DNA from: a virus | Reading direction: 5' to 3' (one strand) | Length of the DNA stretch: 26,278 nucleotides | Virus record (IMG/VR): IMGVR_UViG_3300043410_001478 | Location: 1 to 26,278 of that record | Part shown: positions 1 to 26,278 of the stretch, in pieces | How positions within the stretch are numbered: the stretch's first letter is position 1 | How the letters are laid out: each line of letters begins with the position of its first letter | Made by a program: the position numbers and the translations under genes | Notes under the pieces: model-generated | Told to the model about the DNA's origin: nothing | Database searches by the model: none | The model's input: only the letters and a program-made list of their open reading frames with translations

Positions 1-3000
1 AACGTGCAAAGCGCTGCATGAGCGCTGGCACGTTTTGCGCGAGGATCTCTTCTGCGAACTCGTAGGCCTTGTCAGGCGCAATCGTGCCCGTCGATGCCAT
101 GCGGATAAGGTAGGCCAGCTTGCGCTGGTCCATCTCACCTTCTTGGATCAAGTTGGCAACGTCGGCAGCGGTTTCGCCTACGCGGTCTTCTGGGCTCATC
201 CCAGCGCCGTTGACTGCGCCACCTTCTGCAAAGTTTACTTCTTCTGCGTTCAGCGTTGGCTCGGCTTCCTCAACCATGCCGCCCTCTGCCATATGAGGCA
301 TACCCTTGAGGATGTTCTCACGCATGGCCGAGGTGATTTGAATTACAGGAACATCAATTGAGTTCTCTGCAATCTTCTTCGCCATCGCAGCGCGAGCTTC
401 GGCTTCAGTGTCAAACATCAGACCCTTAGAATTGTAGTCTGAGCTTTTGACCATCCACTTACCCGAAACTGTCGCTGATGGATCGGTGATGTGCCAACCT
501 TCCTTGTTGATAGGAAGTTGGGTTTTCTCAATCTTCGCTTCAGGGTCCAGTTTCTTCAGCAACTTTTGCAACTGGGTTGGTACAATCTTGTCGTAGTAAC
601 CCTTCATGCCTTCGCCGCCAACAGAGAGGTCTTGGCCTTCAAGGTAATGAACAGGATTGCCAGACCCATATGTTTTAAGTTCAGTATCAAGAAGTTTTTT
701 CGCAACTTCTTTTCCAACTAAACCTTCCAGTTCATTTGGCTTTGTTGCTTTATCAACAACAAGTTGTCCATCCTTGTAAGCATATAATTTCCCAGTTTTA
801 GGGACATACTGAAGACTATCAATCTGCTTGCTCAAATCATATCGCTTGGCTTGCTCTACACCGGGCGTCCAAACAACACGATCATAACCGCCTTCAGCCG
901 CTTCTTTCAAAGCGCGCTTCAATGCAAGGTCTGTCCATGCAGCCGTGTTTGCGACGTAGGGGGCCGATGGAATTCCTTCCATACTTTTGAAGTACTTATC
1001 ATTCCATTCCAATAAGGTTTTAGCTTCATCAGGAGTAAGTATATTACTTTTCTCCCAATGTTTAATAAAGTCAGGAGGAACATTCCTCAATGCAACAGAG
1101 CCATCTTTTTCCTGCATAGCAACAGGAAGCAATTCTGCATTTGGTTGAATTTTATTTTTTAAGATTTCATCCACCGATGCTTGCAACTGTTTTGGTATCT
1201 CAGTTTTGAACCCAGCCTTTTTACCTTGTTGGCCCCAATCAGATTGGATTTCTTCAATGTGAAGAATCTTTTCACCGTTAGGACCAGTGCGGTCAGACAT
1301 GCGAAGATGTGCGAGGACATTCGGATCGTCCCGCCAATGGGCAGATTCAAACATAGGCTTGTTAGCTAAATGCTCAAAGTTCTTAACTCTTGCATGAGCA
1401 ATATCAGCTTCTCTTCTCAAAGCATTAACTTGCTCTTGAGGAATGTTTGATGTTCCTTCAAGCTCCGCAGCAAGAATATCATTATATGCTTTGGTGGCTT
1501 CTTTAGATCGCTGTTTAGCTGCTGCTAACTCTTCCAATGCTTCTTTGGTAGCTCCCGCACCTTTAGGAAGTTTCAACAACACCTCACGGTAGTTCTCACC
1601 ACCGGGGAGAGTGTATTGCTGAAACTTTGGAACATATTGGCTATCAATTCCAGCCCATTCACTCGTCACCATACTGCGCATTTCATCAATGTTTAGACGC
1701 TCGCCATCTGAGGTGAATGGTTCACCATAGACACGGCGGTATTCACGCTCAACTTGTTCATCAGAAAGTTTTGGATTGGTTGAAAGAACCTTTTCCTCAA
1801 CTTGCGGCATACGCTCACGGAAATACTGTGCAGCTTCTTCACGGGTCACAGATGGACGGCCAGCGAATGCTTCAGTAAAACCTTCCAATTCAGCAGGCTT
1901 CACGCCCTGCTTTGCGAGCATCGCAGCCATTTGCTCAGGCGTTCCCTTAGCCTGTGGCAATGCAAGCGCTGTTTCAGCGCCATGGCTATACAAGCCCATG
2001 TTGGTTAATTCACGCTCTGCAGCTTTCTCAACGACAGATTCTTTAGGCGCATTCTCTTCAAACCATTTCTTCACGCCTTCAACTGTAGGCTTTTCAAAGT
2101 CGGTCGAAGCAATGATGTCGCCTGTGTTTCGATCAGCCAACTCTACAAGCATTGGCTCGCCACGATAGGCCTTGTTGTGACCGCCAATAAGAGCTTTCAA
2201 CTGCTGATCAGTTGGAACATCAAATGATTCAAAACCAATGCCGGGTTTGTTGCGAATAGCATTGGTCTCATTCATGAAGCGCGTCATTGCATCTGTGCCA
2301 GATATACCTTCTGGCGCATCAATGATGTCTGATACTTCTCGATGATCGACGTTGCGCTCGCCCGCCATCCAATCGCGCTGACCTTCAACAGGTCGATTAA
2401 ACTCACCAACGCGTGCGTAATCATTTTGCACTTGATGGCGACCTGTGAAATCAAGCATTGAACCATCCGGCATAACATAGCCAGCTTCGCGGATGTCGCG
2501 TGTTTTTCCAAACACTTCAGCAGCCTTTGTCGCAAGATTGCTTGCTTCATGAACGGCTGCCTTTTCAGCACCCTTGATCACGGAGCGCGTTGCAGCGCCT
2601 GCGCCAAATGGCATTACAGCGCCAGTGGCCGCAACAGGCAGGATCTTCTCAAGCTGCTGCGCGATGTCGTCACGGCCTGCAGCTCGAGCTTCTGCAATCT
2701 TGTCCTTCAGCTCTGCGACGTCTTTGGCTGCGTAGAGATTGCCAACGCCGGGCAACATGCCACCGATGAACTCAGCGGGGTTTTCTTTGGCTGCTTCGTA
2801 CATATGGCTGCCGAGCTTGCCGACATCACTGGCCATCTGCGAGACAGGCGTCTCTGCGATATACTTGCCAGCCGTCTCAAGCGCCGGGCCTGTGCCTGCA
2901 GCAATGCCGCGTGCAGCGTCACCGACGCCTTCCCATGACGGACTGACAGCGCCCTGCTCTTCAGGCGGTACGATGTTGGCGCCGATGCGCCGAGCAGTAA

Positions 3001-3559
3001 CCGGGCCACCATCAGCGAAGCGCTTGTCATAACCAAAGAACGCGCCGGGCGAGCGCTGCGACGGATTATAGCTGACGCCGACATAGCCGCCGCCGTCTTC
3101 GCCGAAGCGCGCGGCGTTCACGCCATACTGCATGCCTTTCGGCGTATGCGTTGCTTTAGCACCGAAGTATGTGTCTGCGTCGAAAGGCTTGCCGCCAACG
3201 CCAACGCCATAGGCTGCAGGCGCGCCCTTAAAGGTTGGTTTCATGTAATGCGCCGACAGCGGGCCGACGCCGACGTTGCCACCGACCATCTGCACATCGC
3301 CAGCGACGCGATCGCCAGACGACACAAGCAGATTGCCGGATAGCGGGCCGTGCTGCGCGCCGACCATGCCGCTATAGCCGCTGCCTGCAACTGGATTGGC
3401 ACCAGCCATATGGCGAAGACCACCTATGCGCTCGTAAGCATCACCTGTGCGGATCTCGCGGCTGACGCGATTCATGCGCTGAGCTGCGCTCTCTTGCGGC
3501 TGCGCGTATGGGTCGAAGGCCGAAGGAACTGGCTCGAGCTTGAAATCATCAGGCGGCAT
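1..3559 (-). CDS. Large polyvalent phage protein, virion-associated (partial, C-terminus outside window)
   Basis: The reading frame is open from an ATG at 3559 to the left edge without a stop, about 1186 residues. The start overlaps the terminase stop by about 10 bases, so it belongs to the packaging operon. The N-terminus (about 60-180) is glycine-rich and beta-like. A module at about 360-410 has VMPDGSMLDFTG followed by DHREV. A second module spans about 760-1085: HIEEIQSDWGQQGKKAGF near 765-782, LALKRALKEAAEGGYDRVVW near 878-897, GGEGMKGYYDKI near 980, and ITSAMRENILKGMP near the end. These blocks recur in giant phage and conjugative-element polyvalent proteins, which are co-delivered with DNA. 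FADGG, MAEGG and FAEGG motifs sit near 180, 1089 and 1110. No catalytic function can be assigned. A structural, connector-linked or injected effector role is inferred from position. The EIQSDW region is much richer in A/T than the first 900 bases, which suggests mosaic origin. Confidence 0.85.
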   Translation of the reverse strand, partial: MPPDDFKLEPVPSAFDPYAQPQESAAQRMNRVSREIRTGDAYERIGGLRHMAGANPVAGSGYSGMVGAQHGPLSGNLLVSSGDRVAGDVQMVGGNVGVGPLSAHYMKPTFKGAPAAYGVGVGGKPFDADTYFGAKATHTPKGMQYGVNAARFGEDGGGYVGVSYNPSQRSPGAFFGYDKRFADGGPVTARRIGANIVPPEEQGAVSPSWEGVGDAARGIAAGTGPALETAGKYIAETPVSQMASDVGKLGSHMYEAAKENPAEFIGGMLPGVGNLYAAKDVAELKDKIAEARAAGRDDIAQQLEKILPVAATGAVMPFGAGAATRSVIKGAEKAAVHEASNLATKAAEVFGKTRDIREAGYVMPDGSMLDFTGRHQVQNDYARVGEFNRPVEGQRDWMAGERNVDHREVSDIIDAPEGISGTDAMTRFMNETNAIRNKPGIGFESFDVPTDQQLKALIGGHNKAYRGEPMLVELADRNTGDIIASTDFEKPTVEGVKKWFEENAPKESVVEKAAERELTNMGLYSHGAETALALPQAKGTPEQMAAMLAKQGVKPAELEGFTEAFAGRPSVTREEAAQYFRERMPQVEEKVLSTNPKLSDEQVEREYRRVYGEPFTSDGERLNIDEMRSMVTSEWAGIDSQYVPKFQQYTLPGGENYREVLLKLPKGAGATKEALEELAAAKQRSKEATKAYNDILAAELEGTSNIPQEQVNALRREADIAHARVKNFEHLANKPMFESAHWRDDPNVLAHLRMSDRTGPNGEKILHIEEIQSDWGQQGKKAGFKTEIPKQLQASVDEILKNKIQPNAELLPVAMQEKDGSVALRNVPPDFIKHWEKSNILTPDEAKTLLEWNDKYFKSMEGIPSAPYVANTAAWTDLALKRALKEAAEGGYDRVVWTPGVEQAKRYDLSKQIDSLQYVPKTGKLYAYKDGQLVVDKATKPNELEGLVGKEVAKKLLDTELKTYGSGNPVHYLEGQDLSVGGEGMKGYYDKIVPTQLQKLLKKLDPEAKIEKTQLPINKEGWHITDPSATVSGKWMVKSSDYNSKGLMFDTEAEARAAMAKKIAENSIDVPVIQITSAMRENILKGMPHMAEGGMVEEAEPTLNAEEVNFAEGGAVNGAGMSPEDRVGETAADVANLIQEGEMDQRKLAYLIRMASTGTIAPDKAYEFAEEILAQNVPALMQRFAR

Positions 3560-5009
3560 ATGGGTTCACCTTTGGCCGGTCGTCTCTGGCCCGTGGCTCT
3601 GGGGCCTCTGGGCGCGTGACGCGGATCATATCACGATCTGCGATGTAGCGAAGCCCCTGCACGCCGGCATCCATCATGTCGTCATGCGGGATCGAGCCGC
3701 TGCCCGAGAAGGTGCACATCTGCTCAATGAGCGGGTGCGCCCAGCTCACGAACTCACCGGGCACCTTGCTGCTCTCGGTGATCCACACGCGCCCGGCTGC
3801 GAATAGCGGCGAGATCGCGTGCAGGCGGTCGAGCTTGCCTGCGCGGCCGGGATTGTATGGGGCGGCGATGATGCCCTCACGGCCGAGCATCTGGCGCAGG
3901 CTAATGCCAGAGCCCTTGTCTTCGATCAGCAGCACGTCAGGCTTGCGGCCGCTGTCTTCCATGTAGCTGGGCCCGATCACGGGCTTGATCAGCGCCTTCT
4001 GACGCGGCGCGTACACCGCCTTCATTTCCTGCTTCACCCGGCGGATGAGATCGGGAAAGCCCAGCCGCTCTTGCCAGCAGTCGAGCAGGATGACGTCGCG
4101 TCGATCGGCGCGCGGGCTGAACACGCCCCAGACGACGCAGGCCGAATAGTCGGGGTCGCCCTTGGTGGTGTTGCCGGTCTCTTCGGTAAAAGCTGTGTCG
4201 AGCGACATGACCACGAACTCAAGCTCAGGCAGCTCGCCCTTCCATTGCTTGATCCACGAGCGGCGCACCACGCCCATTTCCTCGGGGTTGATGATCTCGG
4301 CGTGAATTTCCTGCCGGCCGATCGTCGTGCCTTCGTAGCGCAGGATCTGATCGCGGAAGGTTGGCGCGAGGTTGGCGAGGTTGTCGTAGGTCGAGGCGCG
4401 GGTGACGACGACGTCCTTGCCTTCGCGCTTCAGCAGGTTGCGGATGATGGTGTTAGGCTTGGGCGTGGTCGAGCAGATCAGCCGAGGCCGGGCGCCGAGG
4501 CGCATGCCAAACATGAGCAGGTCGAAGGCCTCGTCGGCATATTGCCACGCTGCCAGCTCGTCGAGCCATCCACCATGGAACTGGGGACCACGGAAGCGCT
4601 CGGGCTTCTCGGCCGTGATGCCTTTGATGGTCGAGCCGTTGACGAATTTCATCTCGACGTCCGACTTGTTGTAGGACGCGATCAGGTCACGCGGGATGAC
4701 GTTGAGCAGGCCGGATTCGCCTTCGAAGCACACGCCGATCAGGTCGCCATAGGTGGGGGCGGAGACGAGCCACCGGGTGTGGGGCTGCAGCGCTGCCCAG
4801 CTCCCGATCGTCTCGGCGGCTGTGCGGGTCTTCCCGGCGCCGCGCCCGGCGAGCAGCAGCCAGATGGTCCAGTCATCGCCGGCGGGCGGGATTTGATGTG
4901 GCAGGCGCTTGTTGAGCCAGCCGAGCTGCCAGTCAGCGACGAGCCGCTCTTGCGGACTCATGCGCTGCCAAGCATCAAGCAGTGCATCAGTTATCTTTTT
5001 TGCCGCCAT
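3549..5009 (-). CDS. terL: Terminase large subunit (DNA-packaging ATPase/nuclease)
   Basis: This is the motor and nuclease that pumps phage DNA into the prohead at the portal vertex and cuts the concatemer. The 486 residues are a normal full length. The N-terminal ATPase domain has Walker A GRGAGKT at 55-61 and Walker B GWLDEL with D150/E151, followed by a coupling-type STTPKP at 180-185. The C-terminal RNase H-like nuclease has acidic residues in MSLDTAF (D271), LLIEDKGSG (E363/D364) and HDDMMDA (D443/D444, D447). The ATG at 5009 lies inside the end of the small-subunit gene, overlapping by 23 bases, so the two are translationally coupled. The stop overlaps the start of the polyvalent protein gene. 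Both ATPase and nuclease residues look intact. Confidence 0.97.
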   Translation of the reverse strand: MAAKKITDALLDAWQRMSPQERLVADWQLGWLNKRLPHQIPPAGDDWTIWLLLAGRGAGKTRTAAETIGSWAALQPHTRWLVSAPTYGDLIGVCFEGESGLLNVIPRDLIASYNKSDVEMKFVNGSTIKGITAEKPERFRGPQFHGGWLDELAAWQYADEAFDLLMFGMRLGARPRLICSTTPKPNTIIRNLLKREGKDVVVTRASTYDNLANLAPTFRDQILRYEGTTIGRQEIHAEIINPEEMGVVRRSWIKQWKGELPELEFVVMSLDTAFTEETGNTTKGDPDYSACVVWGVFSPRADRRDVILLDCWQERLGFPDLIRRVKQEMKAVYAPRQKALIKPVIGPSYMEDSGRKPDVLLIEDKGSGISLRQMLGREGIIAAPYNPGRAGKLDRLHAISPLFAAGRVWITESSKVPGEFVSWAHPLIEQMCTFSGSGSIPHDDMMDAGVQGLRYIADRDMIRVTRPEAPEPRARDDRPKVNPYAA

Positions 5010-6360: not shown

Positions 6361-6422
6361 AAAAATAATTTTGCAAAACATTGAAAAAAGTTCTTGTACC
6401 GAATCAAAAAATTCGTATGATG
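6361..6422 (+). promoter_or_regulatory. Early promoter repeat, copy 1, with GANTC in the spacer
   Basis: This 62-bp element is repeated at 7276-7337 with one mismatch. It contains the perfect palindrome TTTTGCAAAA (6369-6378), a -35-like CTTGTAC (TTGTAC 6394-6399), a 16-base spacer and a -10-like TATGAT (6416-6421). GAATC, a GANTC site, sits in the spacer at 6401-6405. Transcription would start near 6428, giving a short leader to the ATG at 6453. GANTC is the CcrM methylation site that GcrA reads at promoters in Alphaproteobacteria. Confidence 0.75.
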
Positions 6423-6452
6423 TTTCCTGTAACCCAGACCAAGGAGCCCAGC

Positions 6453-6650
6453 ATGACCGACCAGCCCACCCCCTCCATCGAGACCAAGGCCGTCACCTTC
6501 CGCAATTATGACGGCAAGGCCCATCGCGGCGTTATCATCAGCGGCACGCTCTTGGCCTGCTGCTCCTGCCCCGGCTCCCGCAACGGTCGCCTGACCAACG
6601 GCGCGAAGATCATCTGCGAAGGCCACGACAAGGCCAACTGCGGCAAGTAA
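6453..6650 (+). CDS. Small Cys-containing early protein, unknown
   Basis: This is a 65-residue protein, first of the rightward early genes. A TTG start further upstream (6381) lies inside the promoter, so I chose the ATG at 6453, which has AAGGAG six bases upstream. The middle is beta-like (AVTFRNYDGKAHRGVIISG). Then comes a cysteine group LLACCSCPGS and two later cysteines in IICEGHDKANC, which could bind zinc. I recognise no family. Being first after a strong promoter fits a host-takeover or regulatory peptide, but that is inference from position. A stable G/C hairpin follows the stop. Confidence 0.75.
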   Translation: MTDQPTPSIETKAVTFRNYDGKAHRGVIISGTLLACCSCPGSRNGRLTNGAKIICEGHDKANCGK

Positions 6651-6657
6651 CCCAACC

Positions 6658-6675
6658 GGGGGGCTGCGGCCCCCC
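6658..6675 (+). terminator. Intercistronic G/C hairpin with UGCG loop
   Basis: GGGGGGC and GCCCCCC pair as a perfect 7-bp stem around TGCG, a UNCG-type tetraloop closed by C-G. No T-run follows, so it is more likely a partial terminator, an RNA-processing or an mRNA-stabilising element than a classical intrinsic terminator. The next gene starts 20 bases downstream. Confidence 0.6.
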
Positions 6676-6695
6676 ACCAACCCAAGGAGACCAAC

Positions 6696-7025
6696 ATGAC
6701 CAAGGCAAAGCGCAACGACATCTTCCTCCTCGAGCACACCACGACGTGGACGGAGGCTAAGACGTTCAAGCAGAGCACCTCTTGCTATTACGTCCTCGCC
6801 AAGGCGACCAAGGTTGGCCGCGACGGCCTTGTGAAGGAATACACCCGCGCCCACAGCAGCTACACGGAGATCGTGGACAAGACCCGCGATCGTGTGCTGG
6901 TCATCAGCGACCCTGTCCTGCAAGGCGCAGCGCGCGACCTGTACGACACGCTGAAGGACGACTACTTCGGCGACATTGGCCGAGCGAAGAGCGCCATCCT
7001 CGACCGCGCAGAGGCCCTGCGCTAA
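6696..7025 (+). CDS. Early protein of unknown function, 109 residues
   Basis: The start is set by CCAAGGAGACCAAC directly before the ATG, the leader repeated through this region. The protein opens MTKAKRNDIFLLEHTTTW. It has a mixed beta/alpha composition, one cysteine (STSCYYVLAKATKV), and a helical C-terminal half with alternating charges (DPVLQGAARDLYDTLKDDYF, then RAKSAILDRAEALR). No catalytic motif, membrane segment or signal peptide is visible and I do not recognise the family. It sits between two hairpin-bearing gaps, so its transcript segment is flanked by stable stems. Confidence 0.8.
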   Translation: MTKAKRNDIFLLEHTTTWTEAKTFKQSTSCYYVLAKATKVGRDGLVKEYTRAHSSYTEIVDKTRDRVLVISDPVLQGAARDLYDTLKDDYFGDIGRAKSAILDRAEALR

Positions 7026-7032
7026 CCAACCC

Positions 7033-7053
7033 GGTGGGGGAAATACCCCCACC
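7033..7053 (+). terminator. Intercistronic G/C hairpin
   Basis: GGTGGGGG and CCCCCACC form a perfect 8-bp stem with loop AAATA, just after the stop at 7025. ATTTCCCTT follows rather than a clean T-run, so termination would be partial. It is one of four hairpins of the same style in the window. Confidence 0.6.
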
Positions 7054-7082
7054 TATTTCCCTTAATCCAAGGAGACCAGACC

Positions 7083-7283
7083 ATGACGACAGTAATCCGC
7101 TCCACCATTGCTGAAGACCGCCGCCGGATCTCTCAGGCGCGCATCCGCGAACTTGAAGCAGCCTTGCAGGAGGCGATGGATTTCATCGACCGATATGTCG
7201 ATGTGATCGACGGCCCTGACGGGCCAGAGCCCAACGAGGCCATGCAGGTCCACTGGCACCTAAATGACGTGCTCGAAAAATAA
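7083..7283 (+). CDS. Small helical early protein, unknown
   Basis: This 66-residue protein starts at an ATG preceded by CCAAGGAGACCAGACC. The N-terminal two thirds are one long charged helix (AEDRRRISQARIRELEAALQ, continuing into a Phe/Ile-rich stretch near 32-40), probably a coiled coil. An acidic, proline-containing tail ends LNDVLEK. The RIRELEAALQEA pattern resembles the ADRIEALEAAL segments of the gene family at 13.9-16 kb. The last codons overlap the second promoter repeat. Function unknown. Confidence 0.75.
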   Translation: MTTVIRSTIAEDRRRISQARIRELEAALQEAMDFIDRYVDVIDGPDGPEPNEAMQVHWHLNDVLEK

Positions 7284-7337
7284 TTTTGCAAAACATTGAA
7301 AAAAGTTCTTGTACCGACTCAAAAAATTCGTATGATG
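7276..7337 (+). promoter_or_regulatory. Early promoter repeat, copy 2, with GANTC in the spacer
   Basis: This is the second copy of the 62-bp promoter, 61/62 identical to 6361-6422. It has palindrome TTTTGCAAAA (7284-7293), TTGTAC (7309-7314), a 16-base spacer and TATGAT (7331-7336). The only difference is at 7318, where GAATC becomes GACTC (7316-7320). The GANTC motif is therefore kept while the CGAAT/ATTCG dyad is broken. It overlaps the end of the preceding gene and would drive the gene starting at 7371. Confidence 0.75.
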
Positions 7338-7370
7338 ATTCTCATAGACCAACCCAAGGAGACCAACCCC

Positions 7371-7565
7371 ATGTACGTCGCTCTTACCATCTTCGCCAAT
7401 ATGTCCTGCACCAAGATTGCTCGTGTTGTTCACCTGCAAGGTGAGCCTGCTGCCAATTGGCTGCGTCGCGCTGCCGAGATCCTTGGCCGCGAGCCAAAGC
7501 AGAACGACATGATTTTGAGCGTGCGGATCGACCGCATCGGCGACACCGTAGAGGCGTGGGGCTAA
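7371..7565 (+). CDS. Small early protein, unknown (stop codon lies in a hairpin loop)
   Basis: This 64-residue protein begins MYVALTIFANMSCTKIARVV at an ATG with AAGGAG upstream. An upstream in-frame TTG at 7296 lies in the promoter and is unlikely. It looks like a small alpha/beta fold (ANWLRRAAEILGREPKQNDM, then MILSVRIDRIGDTVEAWG). I do not recognise a family. Its TAA stop falls exactly in the 4-base loop of a perfect 7-bp G/C stem at 7556-7573, so a terminating ribosome would melt or be stalled by this hairpin. Confidence 0.75.
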   Translation: MYVALTIFANMSCTKIARVVHLQGEPAANWLRRAAEILGREPKQNDMILSVRIDRIGDTVEAWG

Positions 7566-7599: not shown

Positions 7600-7842
7600 A
7601 TGTGGCACACTTACACCTTCGAAGAAATCCAGATCCCCACCGAGCGCGGCATCGTCTTCTGCGACGGCACCTGCGACATTCGCTTCGACCGTGGCGGCAT
7701 CATCGACGTCGTTGACTGGAAGATCCGCATCACCGACGAGGACGGCGAAGACTTCCCCATGACCATCGTCATCCCCGACCTGCAAAAGCAGATTTGGGAA
7801 CAGATCAAGTGGCGCGCAGAAGAAGCTTGCTACGAAGACTAA
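7600..7842 (+). CDS. Small acidic early protein, unknown
   Basis: This is an 80-residue acidic protein with CCAAGGAGACCAACCCC before its ATG. It is predicted mostly beta (IVFCDGTCDIRFDRGGIIDV, then VDWKIRITDEDGEDFPMTIV) with a short C-terminal helix (DLQKQIWEQIKWRAEEACYE). Three cysteines are present but not in a clear zinc pattern. The strong negative charge would suit a protein that binds a basic host factor or mimics DNA; this is speculation from composition. It is followed within 17 bases by the next gene. Confidence 0.75.
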   Translation: MWHTYTFEEIQIPTERGIVFCDGTCDIRFDRGGIIDVVDWKIRITDEDGEDFPMTIVIPDLQKQIWEQIKWRAEEACYED

Positions 7843-8994: not shown

Positions 8995-11241
8995 CTATCC
9001 TGTAGACTTATAGGTCTTCACGACCTTGCCGTTTTTGGGGTGTTTGGTCTCTGCCACGGTGGCGCCGCCGACCTTCACCAGCTCATCAAGAGCCTTCTCA
9101 ATGTCGGCCTTCTTGTTCTTGCGGAGACGATTGCAGATCACGCCGAGCGTCTCGCCATCATCGCCAGAGATCAACGTCATGATCTTGGCGCGCAGGGCCA
9201 TCAGAGGGCTATCCTTCTCGCGATCATTGGATGTGACAAGGCGCATCTTTTGCTCGACATCACGTCGAACAAAAGCATAGGCCCAAAGTATATGCTCCTC
9301 TGTGCGCAACCCATGAGGAGCCGCAAGGATCAACGAGATCTTGCTGACCTGCTCATAGGCACGAAGAGCCAGCGCCTCCAACCCGGTGGTGGCTGTGTGT
9401 TCCTCTGCCATCTGCTCAAAGGCATCAATGATCTGCTCAAGCAAGTTCAAACCCTCCACTGTCGTGGGGATTGGAATGCGGTCATCGTAAAACTCGACGC
9501 GCTCAAATGTCGTGAGATCCACACGTCCCCCAGAGTAAAGGTTCTGGAATGTGCGCTGCATAGCCTCTGGCATGGGCACGGGCTTGAAGTTCCTTTTTAA
9601 GGGCGGATTGGTCTTATGCTCATAAATGATCAGCGAGCGGCCAATGAAGCCGTTGGTGGCATTGTAAAAGTCCACCGCCTCATTGAATGTCTCGAGCGTG
9701 GCATAGCCGATCAGGCTGATGAAAGGCTTCTCAATGCCTCGGTCGATCGTCTCAAGGTGCCTCTTGAGGGAGAGAGCTTTTGCCACCATGCCGGGCGATG
9801 GATTGTCCTGCCCCTCGATTTGCTTCAACTCCTTCTTGAGGCTGTTGCGGATCTCTTCCTTCATATCGCCTGTGACCAAATAGAATTTTGTAGCCTTGGA
9901 ATAGGCTGACATGAGGCACCCGACGATGCCTTCAAGATACGAACTGGTCCCGGTCTTCTGGGCGTTTTTGATCTTCTTGAGCGTAAAACCGACCTCGTCG
10001 ATCGCGTAGAAGGATGCCTGATTGCGCACCATGTTTCGCACGATCTCCTGCTCAGATTTGATGGTGCCGTGCACAGCGCGCTCAATATGTGCAGCGCGCA
10101 TGATGTCATTGACGCAGGCAAGTTGCGAATCTTTGCCGGTGCCAGATGCTGCAATGCAGAAAATGAACATGTTGGCTGTGACGCCGTCTCGATCGTCGGT
10201 GTAGCGAAGGCCCACAAGGTTTGCGATCGACATCAGAGCCGATGCAACGGAGAGATGTTCACGCACGCGGCGGCTATTGGCCTCAATCCATGCAGCAACC
10301 TCGCCCACAAAGCCCGGCGGCCGCTTTAGGTCGATATGGCCGATGTCGAGCACTTGCGGTGGCTCGGGCACTTCGATGTCGCTGTCGAAGGTGACCGGCT
10401 GCTTCCAACCAGCCTGCTCGGCATAGTGAATGAGCGTGCCGAGCGTCACCGGGTTCGCTGACTTTCCGAAACTGTGCCAGCGCTTTTCAAGAGCGTGCCG
10501 GCCGGGATATTTTGTGCCGCGTGCTGACCATTGGTCCCACACGTCAAAGGCTGTGCCACCCGTTGCGTGGTGCATGGCCATGCCGCACTTGACCCATGTT
10601 TCGTGGTCAGTATCTGGGTCGATGTGAGAAACCATCTCGGCAAGATCTTTGTGGGAAACGTCAAAGAAAGAGCCCTGCACTTCGGCGCGGTGGAACTCAG
10701 GCTTGCGCAGGGCCTCGATCAGGTCTGCCGGTGCGTTGTCGATGTCTTCGACCGATCCATAGGCGACTTCGTAGCGGTTGCCGGAGGCGTGCAGGCTGCC
10801 GGGCCCAACCACATAGCCGCTGCTCTTGAAGTCAATGCCGGGGTAATCTGGATGGTGCTGCATGAGGGCGATGCCCTCTGGCAGGTGAAAATAAAGGTGT
10901 TGAGATCCGCCACCGCTGCCGGTGTTCACGATCAGTCCCGCCTTTTCCACAGCAGGAAAATCGTTCTTGAGTCGTTCGTATGAGGCAACGCCGTCGTTGC
11001 GAGCGTCGATGTCGATGACGAAAAGACCGCGCATCAAGACGCCGTAGCCTGTTTTGAATTGTCCCATTTCCTCCATGGTCTCGATCTGCTCTTCAGACCA
11101 GACAGGTGTATGGATCCAATTTGCCGCGCGTGGGTGCTTGCCTGCCATATTGCAGTCTTTTGAGCCGCACCCGCACTGGCCTTTGACAATCGGATGAAGA
11201 CCGAAAACCCGGTGCCCCGCCTCCCAGAAATCTCGATACAT
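8995..11241 (-). CDS. Bifunctional primase-polymerase / DUF3987-like helicase replication protein
   Basis: This 748-residue replication initiator-type protein combines priming and unwinding. The N-terminal prim-pol domain (about 1-165) has CGCGSKDC and GKHPRAANW, catalytic D77 and D79 in FVIDIDARNDG, GSGGGSQHLYFHLP with H115, and D137 in GIDFKSSGYVVGPGSLH. A PriCT-like linker follows (HETWVKCGMAMHHATGG at about 212-228 and SARGTKYPGRHALEKRWHSF at about 238-257). The ATPase domain starts near 305, with P-loop AASGTGKDS at 363-371 and a candidate Walker B SFYAIDEVG. The residue after the P-loop lysine is Asp, not the usual Ser/Thr, although Ser follows it. The ATG at 11241 abuts the stop of the upstream HTH gene, so both form one leftward unit. 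It is a plausible initiator for the AT-rich region just beyond its stop. Confidence 0.9.
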   Translation of the reverse strand: MYRDFWEAGHRVFGLHPIVKGQCGCGSKDCNMAGKHPRAANWIHTPVWSEEQIETMEEMGQFKTGYGVLMRGLFVIDIDARNDGVASYERLKNDFPAVEKAGLIVNTGSGGGSQHLYFHLPEGIALMQHHPDYPGIDFKSSGYVVGPGSLHASGNRYEVAYGSVEDIDNAPADLIEALRKPEFHRAEVQGSFFDVSHKDLAEMVSHIDPDTDHETWVKCGMAMHHATGGTAFDVWDQWSARGTKYPGRHALEKRWHSFGKSANPVTLGTLIHYAEQAGWKQPVTFDSDIEVPEPPQVLDIGHIDLKRPPGFVGEVAAWIEANSRRVREHLSVASALMSIANLVGLRYTDDRDGVTANMFIFCIAASGTGKDSQLACVNDIMRAAHIERAVHGTIKSEQEIVRNMVRNQASFYAIDEVGFTLKKIKNAQKTGTSSYLEGIVGCLMSAYSKATKFYLVTGDMKEEIRNSLKKELKQIEGQDNPSPGMVAKALSLKRHLETIDRGIEKPFISLIGYATLETFNEAVDFYNATNGFIGRSLIIYEHKTNPPLKRNFKPVPMPEAMQRTFQNLYSGGRVDLTTFERVEFYDDRIPIPTTVEGLNLLEQIIDAFEQMAEEHTATTGLEALALRAYEQVSKISLILAAPHGLRTEEHILWAYAFVRRDVEQKMRLVTSNDREKDSPLMALRAKIMTLISGDDGETLGVICNRLRKNKKADIEKALDELVKVGGATVAETKHPKNGKVVKTYKSTG

Positions 11242-11441
11242 CAGCGACCCCCGAACAAATAATCAGCAAGGATTTCAAGGGTTTCAATGGCAGGCTTTTT
11301 GTTTTTGCCATTGGCGATTGATCTGATGGTGTTTTCGTGAAGAGCCACCAAACGAGCGACCTTTGAGAGGTTCCGATCAGCAAGAGCCGCAACCACGCGC
11401 TCGCGAAGATCCTCATATTGTTTTTGCAATTGTCTATCCAT
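11241..11441 (-). CDS. XRE-family HTH transcriptional regulator
   Basis: This small repressor-like protein of 66 residues (from the ATG at 11441) contains RERVVAALADRNLSKVARLV then ALHENTIRSIANGKNKKPAI and TLEILADYLFGG. This is the standard five-helix HTH layout with recognition helix HENTIRSIANG. An upstream GTG at 11477 would extend it but falls inside a 25-bp dyad, and an ATG at 11453 is also possible. I prefer the shorter form. It is transcribed leftward, coupled to the primase-helicase, and divergent from the Sak4 operon. It is well placed to control both directions. Confidence 0.82.
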   Translation of the reverse strand: MDRQLQKQYEDLRERVVAALADRNLSKVARLVALHENTIRSIANGKNKKPAIETLEILADYLFGGR

Positions 11442-11467
11442 GTTCGCTTGCATCCATGTGTGATAAT

Positions 11468-11492
11468 TGACACCCACATATTGTGTGCGTCA
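11468..11492. promoter_or_regulatory. 25-bp dyad operator candidate between divergent genes
   Basis: TGACACCCACA (11468-11478) and TGTGTGCGTCA (11482-11492) are inverted repeats matching at 9 of 11 positions around a 3-base centre TAT. Half-sites of this length and spacing suit a dimeric HTH repressor. The dyad lies just upstream of the HTH gene start and about 95 bases upstream of the Sak4 gene, so autoregulation plus control of the rightward recombination operon is a natural reading. It is a direct sequence observation; the binding partner is inferred. Confidence 0.6.
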
Positions 11493-11502
11493 CAGGCTGG
11501 TG

Positions 11503-11532
11503 TTGACTTTGACCTGAGATTCGTCTTAGGGT
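11503..11532 (+). promoter_or_regulatory. Weak candidate rightward promoter for the recombination operon, with GATTC in the spacer
   Basis: TTGACT (11503-11508) followed after 18 bases by TAGGGT (11527-11532) could act as -35/-10. The -10 is poor. GATTC, another GANTC site, lies in the spacer at 11518-11522, as GANTC does in the two early promoters. TTGAC matches the alphaproteobacterial -35 consensus. The poor -10 could mean dependence on an activator. Confidence 0.35.
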
Positions 11533-11562
11533 CAACCCGTTGAGAAGAGAAAGGAGATGCCA

Positions 11563-12318
11563 ATGAGCATTCTTTCAACGGTTGGCAAACCCGCTGACCG
11601 CCCTGTGATCGTCACCATCTGTGGTGACAGCGGCCTTGGTAAAACCACCTTGGCCTGTACGTTCCCCAAGCCAATCGTGATCCGCGCTGAAGACGGTTTG
11701 CAGGCGATCCCTGCAAAGCAACGTCCTGATGCGTTCCCGGTCTTGACCGGGCCCGATATGCTTTGGGACCAACTGAAAGCTCTCATCCATGAGGACCATG
11801 AATACGAGACCTTGATCGTTGATTCGGTCACGGCCTTGGAACGCATGTTCACGCAATATGTGGTTGAGACAGACCCCAAGAAGCCCAAGGGCATCCAACA
11901 GGCTTTGGGGGGATATGGTGCAGGGCGCGATGCTGTCGCTGCCATGCATGCGCGTTTGCGCAAAGCTGCTGGCATCCTTGCTGAGAAGCGTGGCATGCAT
12001 ACGGTCTTTGTGGCGCATGCTGACACGAGCCGCATCGAGCCGCCGGATGATGACGCTTACATGCGTTATACTCTGCGCCTGCATGAAAAGTCGATGCCTG
12101 CCTATGTCGATGACGTCGATGTGGTTGGCTTCTTGAAGCTCGAAACATTCACCACTGGTGAAGGCGAGCGCAAGAAGGCGATCTCTGACGGCACGCGCGT
12201 GCTCATCTGTCACGCAACTGCCGCCAACGTTTCGAAGAACCGTTTCGGCATCACTGAGCCGATCAATGTCGAGATCGGCGTTAATCCCCTCACAGCACAC
12301 ATTGGAGCACTGTCATGA
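11563..12318 (+). CDS. Sak4-like RecA-fold ATPase (AAA_24 family), single-strand annealing recombinase
   Basis: This 251-residue P-loop ATPase has Walker A GDSGLGKTT at 21-29, Walker B TLIVDSV with D87, and a RecA-like sensor region TVFVAHADTSRI. The family is the phage nucleotide-binding protein group that includes Sak4, which anneals single-stranded DNA in homologous recombination with an SSB partner. I prefer the ATG at 11563, six bases after AAGGAG, over the ATG at 11557 that directly abuts the SD. The SSB-like gene follows with a 4-base overlap, the usual Sak4-SSB pairing. The candidate promoter and dyad lie just upstream. Confidence 0.88.
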   Translation: MSILSTVGKPADRPVIVTICGDSGLGKTTLACTFPKPIVIRAEDGLQAIPAKQRPDAFPVLTGPDMLWDQLKALIHEDHEYETLIVDSVTALERMFTQYVVETDPKKPKGIQQALGGYGAGRDAVAAMHARLRKAAGILAEKRGMHTVFVAHADTSRIEPPDDDAYMRYTLRLHEKSMPAYVDDVDVVGFLKLETFTTGEGERKKAISDGTRVLICHATAANVSKNRFGITEPINVEIGVNPLTAHIGALS

Positions 12319-13479: not shown

Positions 13480-13910
13480 TTGATATCACTAAGCAATACC
13501 GCACGCGCAGCGGTATGACCGTGAGTGAACTACGGCATGCTTTATTCAATACTGTTGAAGGAAAAATCCATGCTGCGCGGCCTATCTACACGCAGTGGAA
13601 TCAGGATACAGGCAAGTGCGTTGTCCTCGGCCGCGAAGAATATGATTTGATGGAGGTTGAAGTGACCAACGAAGAGTTGTTTGAGACACTGAACAAAGCA
13701 GAAGAGATGAGCCTTGAGAATTGGCGCATGTACCGCACCATGTACAACGCCGAGCTTGGCAAGCTGCAAGACCGCATTAAGCAACTAGAGGACACTTTGG
13801 AGCGCATTGAGGATATCACAATAGACTCTGCTTTTGATAAGATACAGCGCTTGGGCATCATCATGGCGTATGCATTCAATGCCCGCATGGGGAATAAGAA
13901 AGATGGATGA
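13476..13910 (+). CDS. Unknown phage protein: YRTRSG domain plus coiled coil
   Basis: This 144-residue protein begins at a GTG with GAGGGAGAAGG just upstream. Residues 1-60 (QYRTRSGMTVSELRHALFNT through EEYDLMEV) match the layout of the preceding protein's N-terminal domain, so the two are paralogues. A long charged coiled coil follows (ELGKLQDRIKQLEDTLERIE). The C-terminus MGNKKDG overlaps the next gene's start, a diverged form of the repeated GEKKD junction that organises the genes up to 16.0 kb. Confidence 0.78.
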   Translation: MIDITKQYRTRSGMTVSELRHALFNTVEGKIHAARPIYTQWNQDTGKCVVLGREEYDLMEVEVTNEELFETLNKAEEMSLENWRMYRTMYNAELGKLQDRIKQLEDTLERIEDITIDSAFDKIQRLGIIMAYAFNARMGNKKDG

Positions 13911-14211
13911 TCTTGTGAAGCGGCTGCGCAATCCAAAAGGGGACAGTGGCTCTGACTTCAATGCTACCTATTGGGTGGGGTTGATTACTGAAGCCGCCGA
14001 CCGCATTGAGAAACTGGAGCGTGAAAAGGCTTCTTGGAAAGGAGCGTATGACGGTGCTGTTTTAGCATTGACTGAACGCAACAAAGAACTGGAAGCGGCG
14101 CTGCGGGAGATTGCAGACGGCCCGCGTGACGCAGATAAATCTTATGCTGAATTGTTCGTAGAGGTCTGCATGGAAGCCCGCGCTGCACTAGGGGAGAAGA
14201 AAGATGACTGA
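13903..14211 (+). CDS. Small MDDLVKRLRN-family coiled-coil protein (copy 1)
   Basis: This 102-residue protein opens MDDLVKRLRNPKGDSGSDFN, nearly identical in its first ten residues (and in DNA) to the gene at 15455. Then come AADRIEKLEREKASW, a coiled coil (LALTERNKELEAALREIADG), and the tail AARAALGEKKDD. The ATG at 13903 overlaps the previous stop; an upstream in-frame start would extend it into that gene. The last codons CTAGGGGAGAAGAAAG are the SD for the next gene. Such modular small proteins are common in alphaproteobacterial phages and their role is unknown. Confidence 0.78.
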   Translation: MDDLVKRLRNPKGDSGSDFNATYWVGLITEAADRIEKLEREKASWKGAYDGAVLALTERNKELEAALREIADGPRDADKSYAELFVEVCMEARAALGEKKDD

Positions 14212-14473
14212 CATTTTGAAAAGGCTGACGGACTACATCGCACAATGCCCATCCGCAAATGGCCGGACATTCCATGAAATGGATGAAGAGGTTTTGATCG
14301 CTCAATCCGCTGATGAGATCGCAAAACTACGGGCTGCGCTGCGGAAAATTGCTGCCATTGAAGATGAGCATATCAACGTGCCAAAGACTAATGAAGGTGC
14401 AAACCTTTGGGCTTGCCTAGCCATGTGCGTTGAGCTTGCTGAAACCGCATTAGAGGAGAAAAAAGATGACTAA
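14204..14473 (+). CDS. Small helical protein of the GEKKD-tail family
   Basis: This 89-residue protein starts MTDILKRLTDYIAQCPSANG, then SADEIAKLRAALRKIAAIED and LAMCVELAETALEEKKDD. It shares the plan of its neighbours: an N-terminal xDxLKRL motif, a short coiled coil with LRAALRKI, and the EKKDD end. The start ATG lies within the previous gene's tail, seven bases after GGGGAG. Function unknown. Overlaps on both sides make it a clear coupled cistron. Confidence 0.78.
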   Translation: MTDILKRLTDYIAQCPSANGRTFHEMDEEVLIAQSADEIAKLRAALRKIAAIEDEHINVPKTNEGANLWACLAMCVELAETALEEKKDD

Positions 14474-14723
14474 AGCTGAAATCTATGAAAACGCCTTGCG
14501 TACCATTGCCCGCCATGCGTTGCGGCGCAGGATGGTTAAAGACCCTATGCCTTTGAAGGAGTTTTATGACCCTTTGTGTGGCATTAATAAGCTGTCAGCA
14601 TTTGGGGGCTGGGATGAGTTCCTTGCCAGCAAAACGCGCCGCAATGAGCTTGCTGAAATCTTTGAGCAGCTTGGTGACATTGCCGTGAAAGCTTTGGAGG
14701 ATGGGGAGAAGAAAGATGGATGA
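14466..14723 (+). CDS. Small protein of the GEKKD-tail family, unknown
   Basis: This 85-residue protein opens MTKAEIYENALRTIARHALR, then RRMVKDPMPLKEFYDPLCGI, and ends IAVKALEDGEKKDG. It is helical and has no recognised domain. The SD GAGGAG is encoded by the Glu-Glu codons of the previous gene's tail with a 7-base spacer. Its own tail again encodes GGGGAG for the next gene. The central part differs from its neighbours, so only the ends are conserved in this array. Confidence 0.77.
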   Translation: MTKAEIYENALRTIARHALRRRMVKDPMPLKEFYDPLCGINKLSAFGGWDEFLASKTRRNELAEIFEQLGDIAVKALEDGEKKDG

Positions 14724-14946
14724 TTACGATGATCGTGAAGCCGCAGAAGCTTTTGACTGGGCGATGCAATGTAAAGAAGATGAAACGGAGAAGATGAAAG
14801 CCCGCATTGAGCAACTGGAAGCGGCGCTGCGGTTTTATGCAGAAAACTGTAGCGGTGACATGAAGGTTTACAAAACCATCATCGGGCCTTCAGGAGACTA
14901 CGGTGACGTTGCTAAAGCTGCACTAGGGGAGAAGAAAGATGACTGA
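14716..14946 (+). CDS. Small coiled-coil protein of the GEKKD-tail family
   Basis: This 76-residue protein opens MDDYDDREAAEAFDWAMQCK, then KMKARIEQLEAALRFYAENC and VAKAALGEKKDD. The RIEQLEAALRFY segment is shared in style with other family members. The ATG at 14716 has GGGGAG seven bases upstream; a start at 14701 would include the SD itself. It overlaps its downstream neighbour by eight bases. Function unknown. Confidence 0.77.
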   Translation: MDDYDDREAAEAFDWAMQCKEDETEKMKARIEQLEAALRFYAENCSGDMKVYKTIIGPSGDYGDVAKAALGEKKDD

Positions 14947-15247
14947 TGTAATTGATCTCAATTTGCGCCGTCCACCTGTAGTATACACAATTAACATTGC
15001 TCATCATTATGACGGAACACTTGAGTTTGAAATAAAAGATGTGGCTGATGATCCGCGTAGTCGTGACGCAGTCATACACGCTTTCAAAAGAATTAGCGGC
15101 GCTGAAGAACGTATTGAAGCATTAGAACAGGCATTGAAGCATTACGCTTGTGATTGCGTTGATCCAAGCTGTGAAGCTGGTGACAATGAAAGCATTATGT
15201 GCGGCCTAGCTGCCCGCACTGCATTAGGGGAGAAAGCTGATGAATGA
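14939..15247 (+). CDS. Small protein of the GEKKD-tail family, unknown
   Basis: This 102-residue protein has a distinctive N-terminus (MTDVIDLNLRRPPVVYTINI, then HHYDGTLEFEIKDVADDPRS) that looks like a beta hairpin. A family-type coiled coil follows (AEERIEALEQALKHYACDCV) with four cysteines in the C-terminal third (CDCVDPSC and later SIMCG), then ARTALGEKADE. Cysteine spacing could allow metal binding. The start overlaps the preceding gene by eight bases with SD GGGGAG at 14926-14931. Confidence 0.77.
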   Translation: MTDVIDLNLRRPPVVYTINIAHHYDGTLEFEIKDVADDPRSRDAVIHAFKRISGAEERIEALEQALKHYACDCVDPSCEAGDNESIMCGLAARTALGEKADE

Positions 15248-15455
15248 TTGGAACCCTATAGAAACCGCGCCAAAGGATGGAACGCATTTCCTTGCATATT
15301 GGCCAAAACATGAGCTTGATCCGCATATGAAGCAATATCACGTTTGTCACTATGCACATGGCGCTATTTGGCCCTGTTGGATTACTGAAAACGATTTACC
15401 AACTCATTGGATGCCTTTGCCTCCCCCGCCAACAGATGAACAGGAGTGGGACTGA
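15240..15455 (+). CDS. DUF551-like phage protein
   Basis: This 71-residue protein contains DWNPIETAPKDGTHFLAYWP at the start and WITENDLPTHWMPLPPPPTD at the end. This is the diagnostic WxPIETAPKDGT...THWMPLPxPP frame of the DUF551-type small phage proteins. The domain is very common in early regions of phages and prophages, with no established biochemical function. SD GGGGAG lies seven bases upstream within the previous gene. Its stop TGA overlaps the next ATG. Confidence 0.88.
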   Translation: MNDWNPIETAPKDGTHFLAYWPKHELDPHMKQYHVCHYAHGAIWPCWITENDLPTHWMPLPPPPTDEQEWD

Positions 15456-16036
15456 TGGATGATCTTGTGAAGCGACTGCGGAACACAGGTGAAGGCGACC
15501 TGTATTTTGTTCCATATACAACAAAGGTGCTTATTGATACTGCCGCCGACCGCATTGAGGCGCTGGAAGCGGCGCGTGACGGCGCATACACAGAACGCAA
15601 TCGCTTAGTCGCACTTCTTGCCAGCATCTATCCATCTGGCGTGAAGAAGACAGCAATACCCGGCTGGGATGAGGCGTGGCACGGATGCGTTTATATTGAC
15701 CTACCAGTAGGACAAGCGTCATGGCACTTCCACGATAGTGAAGCGCATTTGTTTGCTCATTTGCCTTCGTATGAAGGTGAATGGGATGGGCATACAACGG
15801 AAGAAAAGTATGAACGTCTTCTTCTTGCAGGAAGCCATGCCAATCAAAAAGATGAATTGCTTATAGATTACATGAAATTTGCAGATGAATTAGTAGTGCA
15901 AACAAAAACACAGAAAGCCCGCATTGAGGTGCTGGAGAAGGCGCTGCGGGAAATTCATGAATATCCAATGGCGTTTGCAGCGCGACAGATTTTGTTCAAA
16001 GCACTAGGGGAGAAGTATGATCCTTCAACTGACTGA
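15455..16036 (+). CDS. MDDLVKRLRN-family protein (copy 2) with WDGHTTEEKY region
   Basis: This 193-residue protein begins MDDLVKRLRNTGEGDLYFVP, repeating the start of the gene at 13903, then AADRIEALEAARDGAYTERN. A middle domain follows (GWDEAWHGCVYIDLPVGQAS, then WHFHDSEAHLFAHLPSYEGE and WDGHTTEEKYERLL) that I recognise from other small phage proteins without a known function. The C-terminal coiled coil KARIEVLEKALREIHEYPMA leads to ALGEKYDPSTD. It appears to be a fusion of the short-family ends with an inserted domain. The last codons contain the SD for the next gene. Confidence 0.78.
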   Translation: MDDLVKRLRNTGEGDLYFVPYTTKVLIDTAADRIEALEAARDGAYTERNRLVALLASIYPSGVKKTAIPGWDEAWHGCVYIDLPVGQASWHFHDSEAHLFAHLPSYEGEWDGHTTEEKYERLLLAGSHANQKDELLIDYMKFADELVVQTKTQKARIEVLEKALREIHEYPMAFAARQILFKALGEKYDPSTD

Positions 16037-16942: not shown

Positions 16943-17808
16943 TGGAACAACGCAGTGAAGGCTGGTTTAAACAGCGTAAGGGCCGCGTGACTGGATCGAG
17001 CGTTGGCGCGATCCTCGGCCTGTCACCGTTTATGAAGCCGGATGACGTGATGCGCCGCATGGTGCGTGAGTATCATGGCGCGAAGTCCGAGTTTCAAGGC
17101 AATGCAGCAACGCAGTGGGGCACGATGAACGAGCCCGGCGCGCTTGTTGAATATGAGATGGAGACGGGCTGCAAGGTCGAGCTGTGCGGCTTCTACACCT
17201 ATGAAGATTGGTTTGGCGCATCACCAGACGGCCTTGTCGGCAGCAACGGCCTGATCGAGATCAAGTGCCCATACAGCATGCGCAAGGGCGAAGGACGGTT
17301 CAAGAGCGCCAAGGAGCAGATGCATTACTATGCGCAGATGCAGGTGCAGCTATTTGTGACCGGCCGCGACTTCTGCGACTTCTATCAGTGGTGCCCGAGC
17401 ATGACGGCTCTTGAGGTTGTGCAGCGTGATGAGACATTCATCACCAATGCCATGAAGGAACTGCGCGCCTTTTATGAGGCCTATCTGATTGAGGTGACAA
17501 AGCCTGAGCGCCATCTTGCGCCTAAGCGCGCAGAGTTCGACGCGCCGCAGATCATTGCCGAATATGACGACACGATCGAAGCGATCAAGCTTTATGAAGA
17601 ACGCAAGAAGGAGCTGCTTGACAAGCTGGTCGAGATCGCAGGCGGTCGTGATGCAATGTTTGGCACGCGCAAGCTCACCATGACCAAGCGCGATGGTGCG
17701 ATCCCTTATGCGAAAATCGTGAAAGAGCACCTGCCGGATCTGAACCTTGAACCCTATCGCGGCAAGCCCGTTGAATATTGGATACTGAGCAATGGGAAAG
17801 AGAAGTGA
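16942..17808 (+). CDS. YqaJ-family recombination exonuclease (lambda Exo-like)
   Basis: This 288-residue 5'-3' exonuclease resects double-stranded ends to feed strand annealing. The N-terminus RSEGWFKQRKGRVTGSSVGA is the typical YqaJ opening. The PD-(D/E)xK core has E64, D96 in ASPDGLVG, and E106/K108 in GLIEIKCP. A helical C-terminal part (AIKLYEERKKELLDKLVEIA) closes the family-length protein. It should work with the Sak4-type ATPase and SSB-like protein about 5 kb upstream on the same strand. All catalytic positions appear intact. Confidence 0.92.
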   Translation: MEQRSEGWFKQRKGRVTGSSVGAILGLSPFMKPDDVMRRMVREYHGAKSEFQGNAATQWGTMNEPGALVEYEMETGCKVELCGFYTYEDWFGASPDGLVGSNGLIEIKCPYSMRKGEGRFKSAKEQMHYYAQMQVQLFVTGRDFCDFYQWCPSMTALEVVQRDETFITNAMKELRAFYEAYLIEVTKPERHLAPKRAEFDAPQIIAEYDDTIEAIKLYEERKKELLDKLVEIAGGRDAMFGTRKLTMTKRDGAIPYAKIVKEHLPDLNLEPYRGKPVEYWILSNGKEK

Positions 17809-18301
17809 CCTCCCCCGTAGCAAGATGGATTTCTACAGCACGCCTTACGAGGCTGTGCTGCCATTGCTTAAGCACCTGCCTGCGGGCACTGCGTTCTGCG
17901 AGCCGTGCGCTGGCGAGGGCCATCTTATCACCCATCTGGAGCGGCATGGTCATCGCTGTGTTGCTGCTTACGACGCAGATGCCCGGTCATCGTACACACA
18001 CCATGATGCGGCGTTTCTTACGCACGCGGATGTGGGTCAGGCCACGCATATCATTACGAACCCGCCGTGGTCCCGGCCTGTGCTTCACCAGCTCATTGAG
18101 CGGTGTTCAATGCTGCGCCCGACGTGGTTCCTGTTCGATGCCGACTGGATGTTTACTAAGCAGGCCCGTCAATATCTCGACAGGTGTCATTTAATTGTCA
18201 GTGTGGGGCGCGTGAAGTGGTTCGGAAATACAGTTGGCAAAGACAACTGCTGCTGGTACAAGTTTCACAGCCCAACTAAAGAGACCAGATTCCATGCTTA
18301 G
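17792..18301 (+). CDS. SAM-dependent methyltransferase with NPPW motif (probable DNA adenine methyltransferase)
   Basis: This 169-residue class I methyltransferase has SAM-binding motif I FCEPCAGEGHL (E37-G43), an acidic residue ending strand 2 (AYDAD) and catalytic motif NPPW at 90-93, typical of N6-adenine or N4-cytosine enzymes. VGRVKWFGNT follows near the C-terminus. It lacks an obvious target-recognition domain, so specificity cannot be read. The ATG at 17792 overlaps the exonuclease gene; the ATG at 17825 (MDFYSTPYEA) is an alternative closer to homologues I recall. It is too short and wrongly organised to be a standard CcrM (DPPY), yet adenine methylation is relevant because the phage encodes a GcrA-like protein. 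Confidence 0.83.
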   Translation: MGKRSDLPRSKMDFYSTPYEAVLPLLKHLPAGTAFCEPCAGEGHLITHLERHGHRCVAAYDADARSSYTHHDAAFLTHADVGQATHIITNPPWSRPVLHQLIERCSMLRPTWFLFDADWMFTKQARQYLDRCHLIVSVGRVKWFGNTVGKDNCCWYKFHSPTKETRFHA

Positions 18302-21851: not shown

Positions 21852-22208
21852 ATGTTAGATGAAATCAAAAAACTCTGGACCAAAGGCCTATCTGTCAATG
21901 AGATTGCAAAAGAGTTCGGCGTCACCAAAGGCGTTGTCTCAGGCGTCATGCATCGAGCAAAGAAGGAAGGCGTTGTGTTTGCGCCTCGCACATCTGGTTC
22001 GATCCGTAAGAGATCAATCAGCAAGACGGTTGATAAAGAAGCAAAGCCTGTCAGCAATGTTGTGAAGCTTCGTCATGACTCATGTCGCTTCATCCTCAAC
22101 AGCGACATGTCGCAGCCGATCTTCTGCAGCAATACGATTCATTATAGGTCGTATTGCGAAGAGCATGCTAAGATTTGCTATGTCCCGATCGTGAGGAAAG
22201 CAAAATGA
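21852..22208 (+). CDS. GcrA-like cell-cycle transcription regulator
   Basis: This 118-residue protein has the two-part GcrA layout. The N-terminal HTH (EIKKLWTKGLSVNEIAKEFG, then VTKGVVSGVMHRAKKEG) matches the GcrA pattern LxxLWxxGLSxxxIAxxxGVTxxxVxGxxHR. The C-terminal cysteine motif has C78 in SCRF, C92 in FCSN, and C102/H105 in YCEEHAKICYVP, as in the sigma-interacting end of GcrA. GcrA is an alphaproteobacterial factor that binds methylated GANTC at promoters and recruits sigma-70 RNA polymerase. The middle linker here is short and basic. With two GANTC-spacer early promoters in this genome, it may act on phage as well as host promoters. Start by leader similarity. Confidence 0.9.
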   Translation: MLDEIKKLWTKGLSVNEIAKEFGVTKGVVSGVMHRAKKEGVVFAPRTSGSIRKRSISKTVDKEAKPVSNVVKLRHDSCRFILNSDMSQPIFCSNTIHYRSYCEEHAKICYVPIVRKAK

Positions 22209-26153: not shown

Positions 26154-26278
26154 TACTTAGGACTCCCCAGCAAGTTGCTAAGAGCAGCAGCGCTCATGCC
26201 AGCGCTTGCGAGCTGTGCGAGAGGCGATGCAGAATATTGCTGGCCCATGCCAGTTGTTGTTTGAGCTTGAGTGCCACC
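26153..26278 (-). CDS. C-terminal end of a virion-type protein (partial)
   Basis: The last 41 codons of a leftward gene enter from the right edge and end in TAA overlapping the next ATG. The visible tail is Gln/Thr/Ala/Gly-rich: GGTQAQTTTGMGQQYSASPL then AQLASAGMSAAALSNLLGSP. This composition fits internal virion or tail components and matches the low-complexity start of the next gene. Nothing more can be said without the upstream sequence. Confidence 0.75.
   Translation of the reverse strand, partial: GGTQAQTTTGMGQQYSASPLAQLASAGMSAAALSNLLGSPK

Follow-up and report, generated by a model that had tools for sequence, protein, structure and literature searches.

The two 62-bp repeats described here, W1 and W2, are best read as tandem early promoters of a tailed phage in which a GANTC site in the spacer is likely to be a working element, methylated by CcrM and read by GcrA. 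The window, meaning the whole stretch of DNA that was analysed, corresponds to an IMG/VR record 26,278 bp long. What the sequence points to is most likely a known mechanism newly found in a phage family, namely sigma70 promoters of the GcrA/CcrM type. The original prediction had tied the site to CcrM/GcrA control. This is favored by the enrichment of GANTC in related spacers, the fit of the sites to an extended GcrA motif, a free central base between fixed flanks and a two-domain GcrA encoded by the phage, but GANTC is not obligatory in the promoter family.

The anatomy of the repeat pair was predicted correctly: the copies agree at 61 of their 62 positions, the sole mismatch (A at 6403, C at 7318) is the N of GANTC, and in both copies the site lies by its coordinates between TTGTAC and TATGAT. 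A weaker similarity (89% over 90 bp) continues up to the ribosome-binding sites.

6361 to 6422, plus strand: W1, putative promoter repeat, copy 1, with a start predicted near 6428
6383 to 6396: AT-rich box of W1
6394 to 6399 and 6416 to 6421: W1 -35 (TTGTAC) and -10 (TATGAT), spacer of 16 nt
6401 to 6405: W1 spacer GAATC, in the context CGAATCA, the complement of TGATTCG (the preferred extended GcrA site)
7276 to 7337, plus strand: W2, putative promoter repeat, copy 2, with a start predicted near 7343
7309 to 7314 and 7331 to 7336: W2 -35 (TTGTAC) and -10 (TATGAT), spacer of 16 nt
7316 to 7320: W2 spacer GACTC, in the context CGACTCA, the complement of TGAGTCG, which fits YGAKTCK
7337 to 7341: second W2 GANTC (GATTC), just 3' of the -10 and conserved in the relative L011/L258

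The second GANTC of W2 (7337-7341) was absent from the original prediction, which had remarked on a CGAAT/ATTCG dyad surrounding the spacer site. CGAAT-N6-ATTCG is indeed intact in W1 and broken in W2, but it is not conserved in relatives. Since the relatives often keep GANTC and not the dyad, a dyad operator was rejected as the main feature.

TTGTAC-16-TATGAT is plausible as a promoter with a weak -35, a reading backed by its homologues. TATGAT matches the consensus at five of six positions and TTGTAC matches TTGACA at only three, which is why a strict scan with the E. coli consensus left both W1 and W2 unflagged. With a weak -35 and an unflagged scan, the label of promoter comes from comparison, position and the -10. 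The comparison draws on a family box, GAAAA[A/T]AGTTCTTG, found before short genes with AAGGAG-type ribosome sites in L008, L011 and L013 and, elsewhere, in 2-4 copies per contig; that homologues of W1 and W2 precede short genes with ribosome sites supports their being promoters. Searches for the exact W1/W2 promoter core in viral contigs gave no match, and when the primase, an early protein and the promoter DNA served as queries, useful relatives were few or absent. The genes downstream of the two repeats are as follows.

6453 to 6650, plus strand: first gene under W1, 65 aa
6696 to 7025, plus strand: early gene, 109 aa; L008, L011 and L013 have a similar gene in second place of their early regions
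7083 to 7283, plus strand: early gene, 66 aa, its 3' end overlapping the W2 repeat
7371 to 7565, plus strand: gene of 64 aa, the first under W2; L019 has a similar gene behind a GANTC promoter
7600 to 7842, plus strand: early gene, 80 aa
7859 to 8134, plus strand: early gene, 91 aa, conserved in relatives

Strong evidence that GANTC matters in these spacers comes from the related promoters. Viral contigs were scanned for the box together with a ribosome site, leaving the spacer free and GANTC unselected, and removal of spacers more than 80% alike left 45 family-like promoters. GANTC was present in the spacers of 23 of these non-redundant promoters, against 1.6 expected from contig density and 3.0 from spacer shuffling (the largest count among 300 shuffles was 8), and clustering at 60% identity still left 10 of 26 against 1.0-1.7 expected. 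Among all 256 gapped words of the form XYNZW, GA.TC ranked first in the spacers, and the next two words overlap it. The prediction that relatives of the repeat retain the site thus holds for these 23 of 45 promoters and fails as a rule: GANTC is absent from about half, including all those of G005, G007 and G008, and broken versions of the site occur in L019 (CAAATCA) and L216 (CGAATTA). Such a pattern indicates a site that is frequent and apparently selected, but optional.

Could these sites simply have been inherited, as a functionless GANTC in an ancestral promoter that was copied? The copies within one genome are clearly paralogous and many of the contigs are close relatives, and yet we consider this very improbable. 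The distance of GANTC from TTG falls into two clusters, 4-7 and 12-14 nt, in different spacer sequences, which argues against simple inheritance of one sequence. When the two main offset clusters were aligned, with 13 and 16 distinct spacers, the C before GANTC, the GA, the TC and the purine after it proved invariant in 29 of 29 spacers, most other positions varied, and the N was A in 24, C in three, G in one and T in one; the rest of the spacer has diverged where CGA.TC has stayed. The original idea of a working GANTC in these promoters is strongly supported by comparison, with GANTC enriched in the spacers, its N free and its flanks fixed. Also against mere ancestry, a distant lineage (L218 and L222, with a terminase only 25% identical) carries the same box and has GAATC right behind TTGAC in six of six tandem promoters, five of which have a second GAATC near the predicted start; the genomes of this lineage show no GANTC depletion. 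Separately, the repeated promoters of an 89-kb contig (L228, L294) carry GAATC close to the start (GCATAACAGAATC) and not in the spacer.

The genome-wide background, too, speaks against a site kept without function. GANTC was counted over the whole 55.8 kb, as the original prediction had proposed, and is depleted, with 57 sites against 107.7 expected. In the window alone there are 26 against 48.7 expected under a Markov model, and its coding sequence has 21 against 58.4 in synonymous shuffles (0.36 of expectation, z -5.9). Of the window's five non-coding GANTCs, four fall within W1, W2 or the right early promoter (at 6401, 7316, 7337 and 11518), and the depletion elsewhere makes their retention in promoters more telling. 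Depletion itself was rejected as a sign of GANTC-promoter use: Caulobacter phage RW is depleted as well (0.52), and no such promoter was found when it was searched. Hosts bearing CcrM are also GANTC-depleted (PMC3973325). In the coding sequence of the window CCNGG is as depleted as GANTC (41 against 84.2, z -6.1), which suggests that another site is avoided as well.

The sequence around the site allows a closer comparison with GcrA. Activation by GcrA in Caulobacter goes with TGATTCG and more broadly with YGAKTCK, an extended motif that the same report gives as unconfirmed in Brevundimonas (PMC7987155). YGAKTCK or its complement is found at 20 of 21 promoter sites, compared with 39 of 169 other GANTCs, these being the non-promoter sites of the window phage, G003 and G004 (p=8e-11). 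TGATTCG itself accounts for 15 of the 21 and 11 of the 169, the commonest phage form, CGAATCA, being its complement. When CGANTCA is the context, a YGAKTCK site survives with A or C at the N and with no other base, so the difference between W1 and W2 is the one change tolerated there. The position is also familiar: GANTC lies at about -27/-28 relative to the predicted start of W1, close to the -28/-29 of ctrA P1 in Caulobacter, where promoters that have GANTC between the -35 and -10 are regulated together as a class (PMC4287350).

These same data bear on a site that works without methylation, at which a phage or host regulator would read C-GAATC-R (TGATTCG) and the match to GcrA and CcrM would be a coincidence. 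Most sites are indeed one word, CGAATC(A/G), with the constant flanks expected of a protein site, and the phage has other HTH proteins. We nevertheless regard this as unlikely, since the center takes all four bases, as for CcrM, with the natural W1/W2 pair as one instance, since the fit to the published GcrA site (20 of 21) does not depend on orientation and the GATTC and GACTC variants follow the same extended rule, and since the phage family carries GcrA.

A third GANTC promoter may drive the long operon on the right, in a region that reads as follows.

11241 to 11477, minus strand: HTH repressor-like gene, divergent from the right promoter
11503 to 11532, plus strand: putative right early promoter, with TTGACT (11503 to 11508), GATTC (11518 to 11522) and TAGGGT (11527 to 11532), spacer of 18
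11557 to 12318, plus strand: gene for a Sak4-like ssDNA annealing protein, which opens the long right operon

Its GATTC is in the same place in L003, L301 and G003, whose spacers otherwise differ, and the spacer is without GANTC in L216, G004, L261, L244 and L014. The right-promoter site is thus supporting but weaker evidence, being kept in only part of the group. Most relatives share the GTTGAC...GTCAAC dyad that the promoter overlaps (window 11502-11536), and the divergent HTH repressor probably uses it as its operator. Further along, at 13881-16027, seven short repeats of the GGGGAGAAGAAAGATGACTGA type stand at gene ends in a run of small, apparently related genes.

The prediction of a GcrA-like protein encoded by the phage proved accurate: the product is a homolog with both domains of GcrA.

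21852 to 22208, plus strand: phage GcrA, with a DNA-binding domain at residues 4-40 and a sigma-interacting domain at 68-116

It matches Pfam PF07750 (9.3e-14) in two stretches and, in the PDB, 7ye1 (6.3e-8) as well as 5yiu and 5yix, so that both Caulobacter GcrA domains are matched. An AlphaFold model is confident only for about residues 1-45, and a fold search with it was uninformative, its C-terminal half being of low confidence. The gene lies near the end of the right operon. Full-length GcrA is also encoded by G003 and G004, and the box promoters of full-GcrA phages have GANTC in eight of eight cases, compared with five of 15 in other large contigs (p=0.0026, uncorrected for relatedness). 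Short GcrA-like proteins that keep only the C-terminal, sigma70-interacting domain and lack the DNA-binding one occur in L313 (G006), L314 (G007) and L316 (G027); these are possible competitors of host GcrA for sigma70. No match to a CcrM-family methylase (N6_N4_Mtase, PF01555) was found in G000, G001 and eight relatives, where positive controls did match; the host is therefore the most likely source of any GANTC methylation. A small methyltransferase-like protein at 17792-18301 (CEPCAGEG and NPPW motifs, PHROG 799, no Pfam match) leaves slight doubt on this point.

A second IMG/VR record (G001, 37,077 bp; L024; L322, L323) is 100% identical to the window at 1-4687 and 23437-26278, and the overlap at both ends means that the two records close a circle of about 55.8 kb, circular or circularly permuted; the genome of the relative G003 is 55.4 kb. 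The genes for a terminase, a primase, the Sak4-like annealing protein, an SSB, a RecE-like exonuclease and a helicase mark it as a tailed phage. By terminase its nearest isolates are the Caulobacter phages RW, KcrB, RLK and GB2A (48%), and together with the presence of GcrA this suggests that the host is probably an alphaproteobacterium. A search for the host by terminase in GTDB genomes was set aside, as its one 80% match lies on an Opitutae-binned contig that is probably a stray viral contig; the other matches reach at most 52%, mostly in betaproteobacterial bins.

Proteins of the GcrA family bind methylated GANTC and domain 2 of sigma70 and stimulate open-complex formation (PMC4287350, PMC7987155). 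Applied to the phage, this would have host CcrM methylate the promoter sites, and GcrA, bound to the methylated site and to sigma70 region 2, help RNA polymerase to open promoters that fit the consensus poorly in the -35 and often in the -10 too. Host GcrA would act first, and phage GcrA, encoded late in the right operon, would then probably reinforce it. A rule that GANTC promoters have weaker -10s was rejected, as only a trend was seen (p=0.064) and W1 and W2 themselves have a good -10.

The good -10s of W1 and W2 might work without an activator, and the sign of the switch could be the opposite: as has been suggested for the gcrA promoter of Agrobacterium, full methylation would silence promoters that fire on un- or hemimethylated DNA. 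Alphaproteobacterial promoters can be repressed by methylation (PMC11514494), and for ctrA P1 hemimethylation is the activating state (PMC4287350). However, the extended motif is that of GcrA-activated genes (PMC7987155), and the -10s of many GANTC promoters in the family are poor (e.g. AACAAA, GACAAA), which suggests a need for help; we judge the opposite sign to be decidedly unlikely. If activation by GcrA on methylated DNA is retained, the promoters might even serve as a methylation-based timer of early genes, an idea that we hold to be rather unlikely. Phage DNA would arrive methylated from its previous host and GcrA would fire the early promoters on this template; replication without matching CcrM activity would then yield hemi- or unmethylated daughters, early transcription would fall and the late program would follow. 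The sigma-domain-only GcrA of some relatives would compete for sigma70 and push the switch.

Promoters activated by methylation are well-known cell-cycle devices of the host. Phage GcrA homologs have been known since phiCbK, to our knowledge with no demonstrated target, and a literature search on phage, GcrA and early promoter found no paper. For phage GcrA, the family of uncultivated viruses described here provides a definite candidate to act on, namely the tandem early promoters that these phages carry themselves. Its retention of GANTC in many of them suggests that these phages may start gene expression through the host's DNA-methylation switch and, if true, the timing of phage infection would be linked to the methylation state of the host. 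Natural variation within the family (a changed N, a lost site, two positions of the site, GcrA either complete or truncated) opens the mechanism to direct tests.

The closest parallel is with the GcrA/CcrM sigma70 promoters of Caulobacter crescentus (ctrA P1, podJ P2), which likewise have GANTC between the -35 and -10 in a YGAKTCK context and are served by a GcrA with DNA-binding and sigma-interacting domains. Unlike them, the putative promoters described here are phage-borne and tandem, stand before short early genes and share the GAAAA[A/T]AGTTCTTG box. As for phages, a GcrA family protein is encoded by phiCbK-type phages (gp222; PMC3556154); the section that describes it proposes that it directs the cell cycle of the host, and mentions no promoter of the phage as a target. 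Here, by contrast, a phage with GcrA also has GANTC in early promoters of its own. A known system in which the phage brings its own GANTC-specific methylase likewise engages GANTC methylation, and differs from the present family, in which no methylase of the CcrM family was found.
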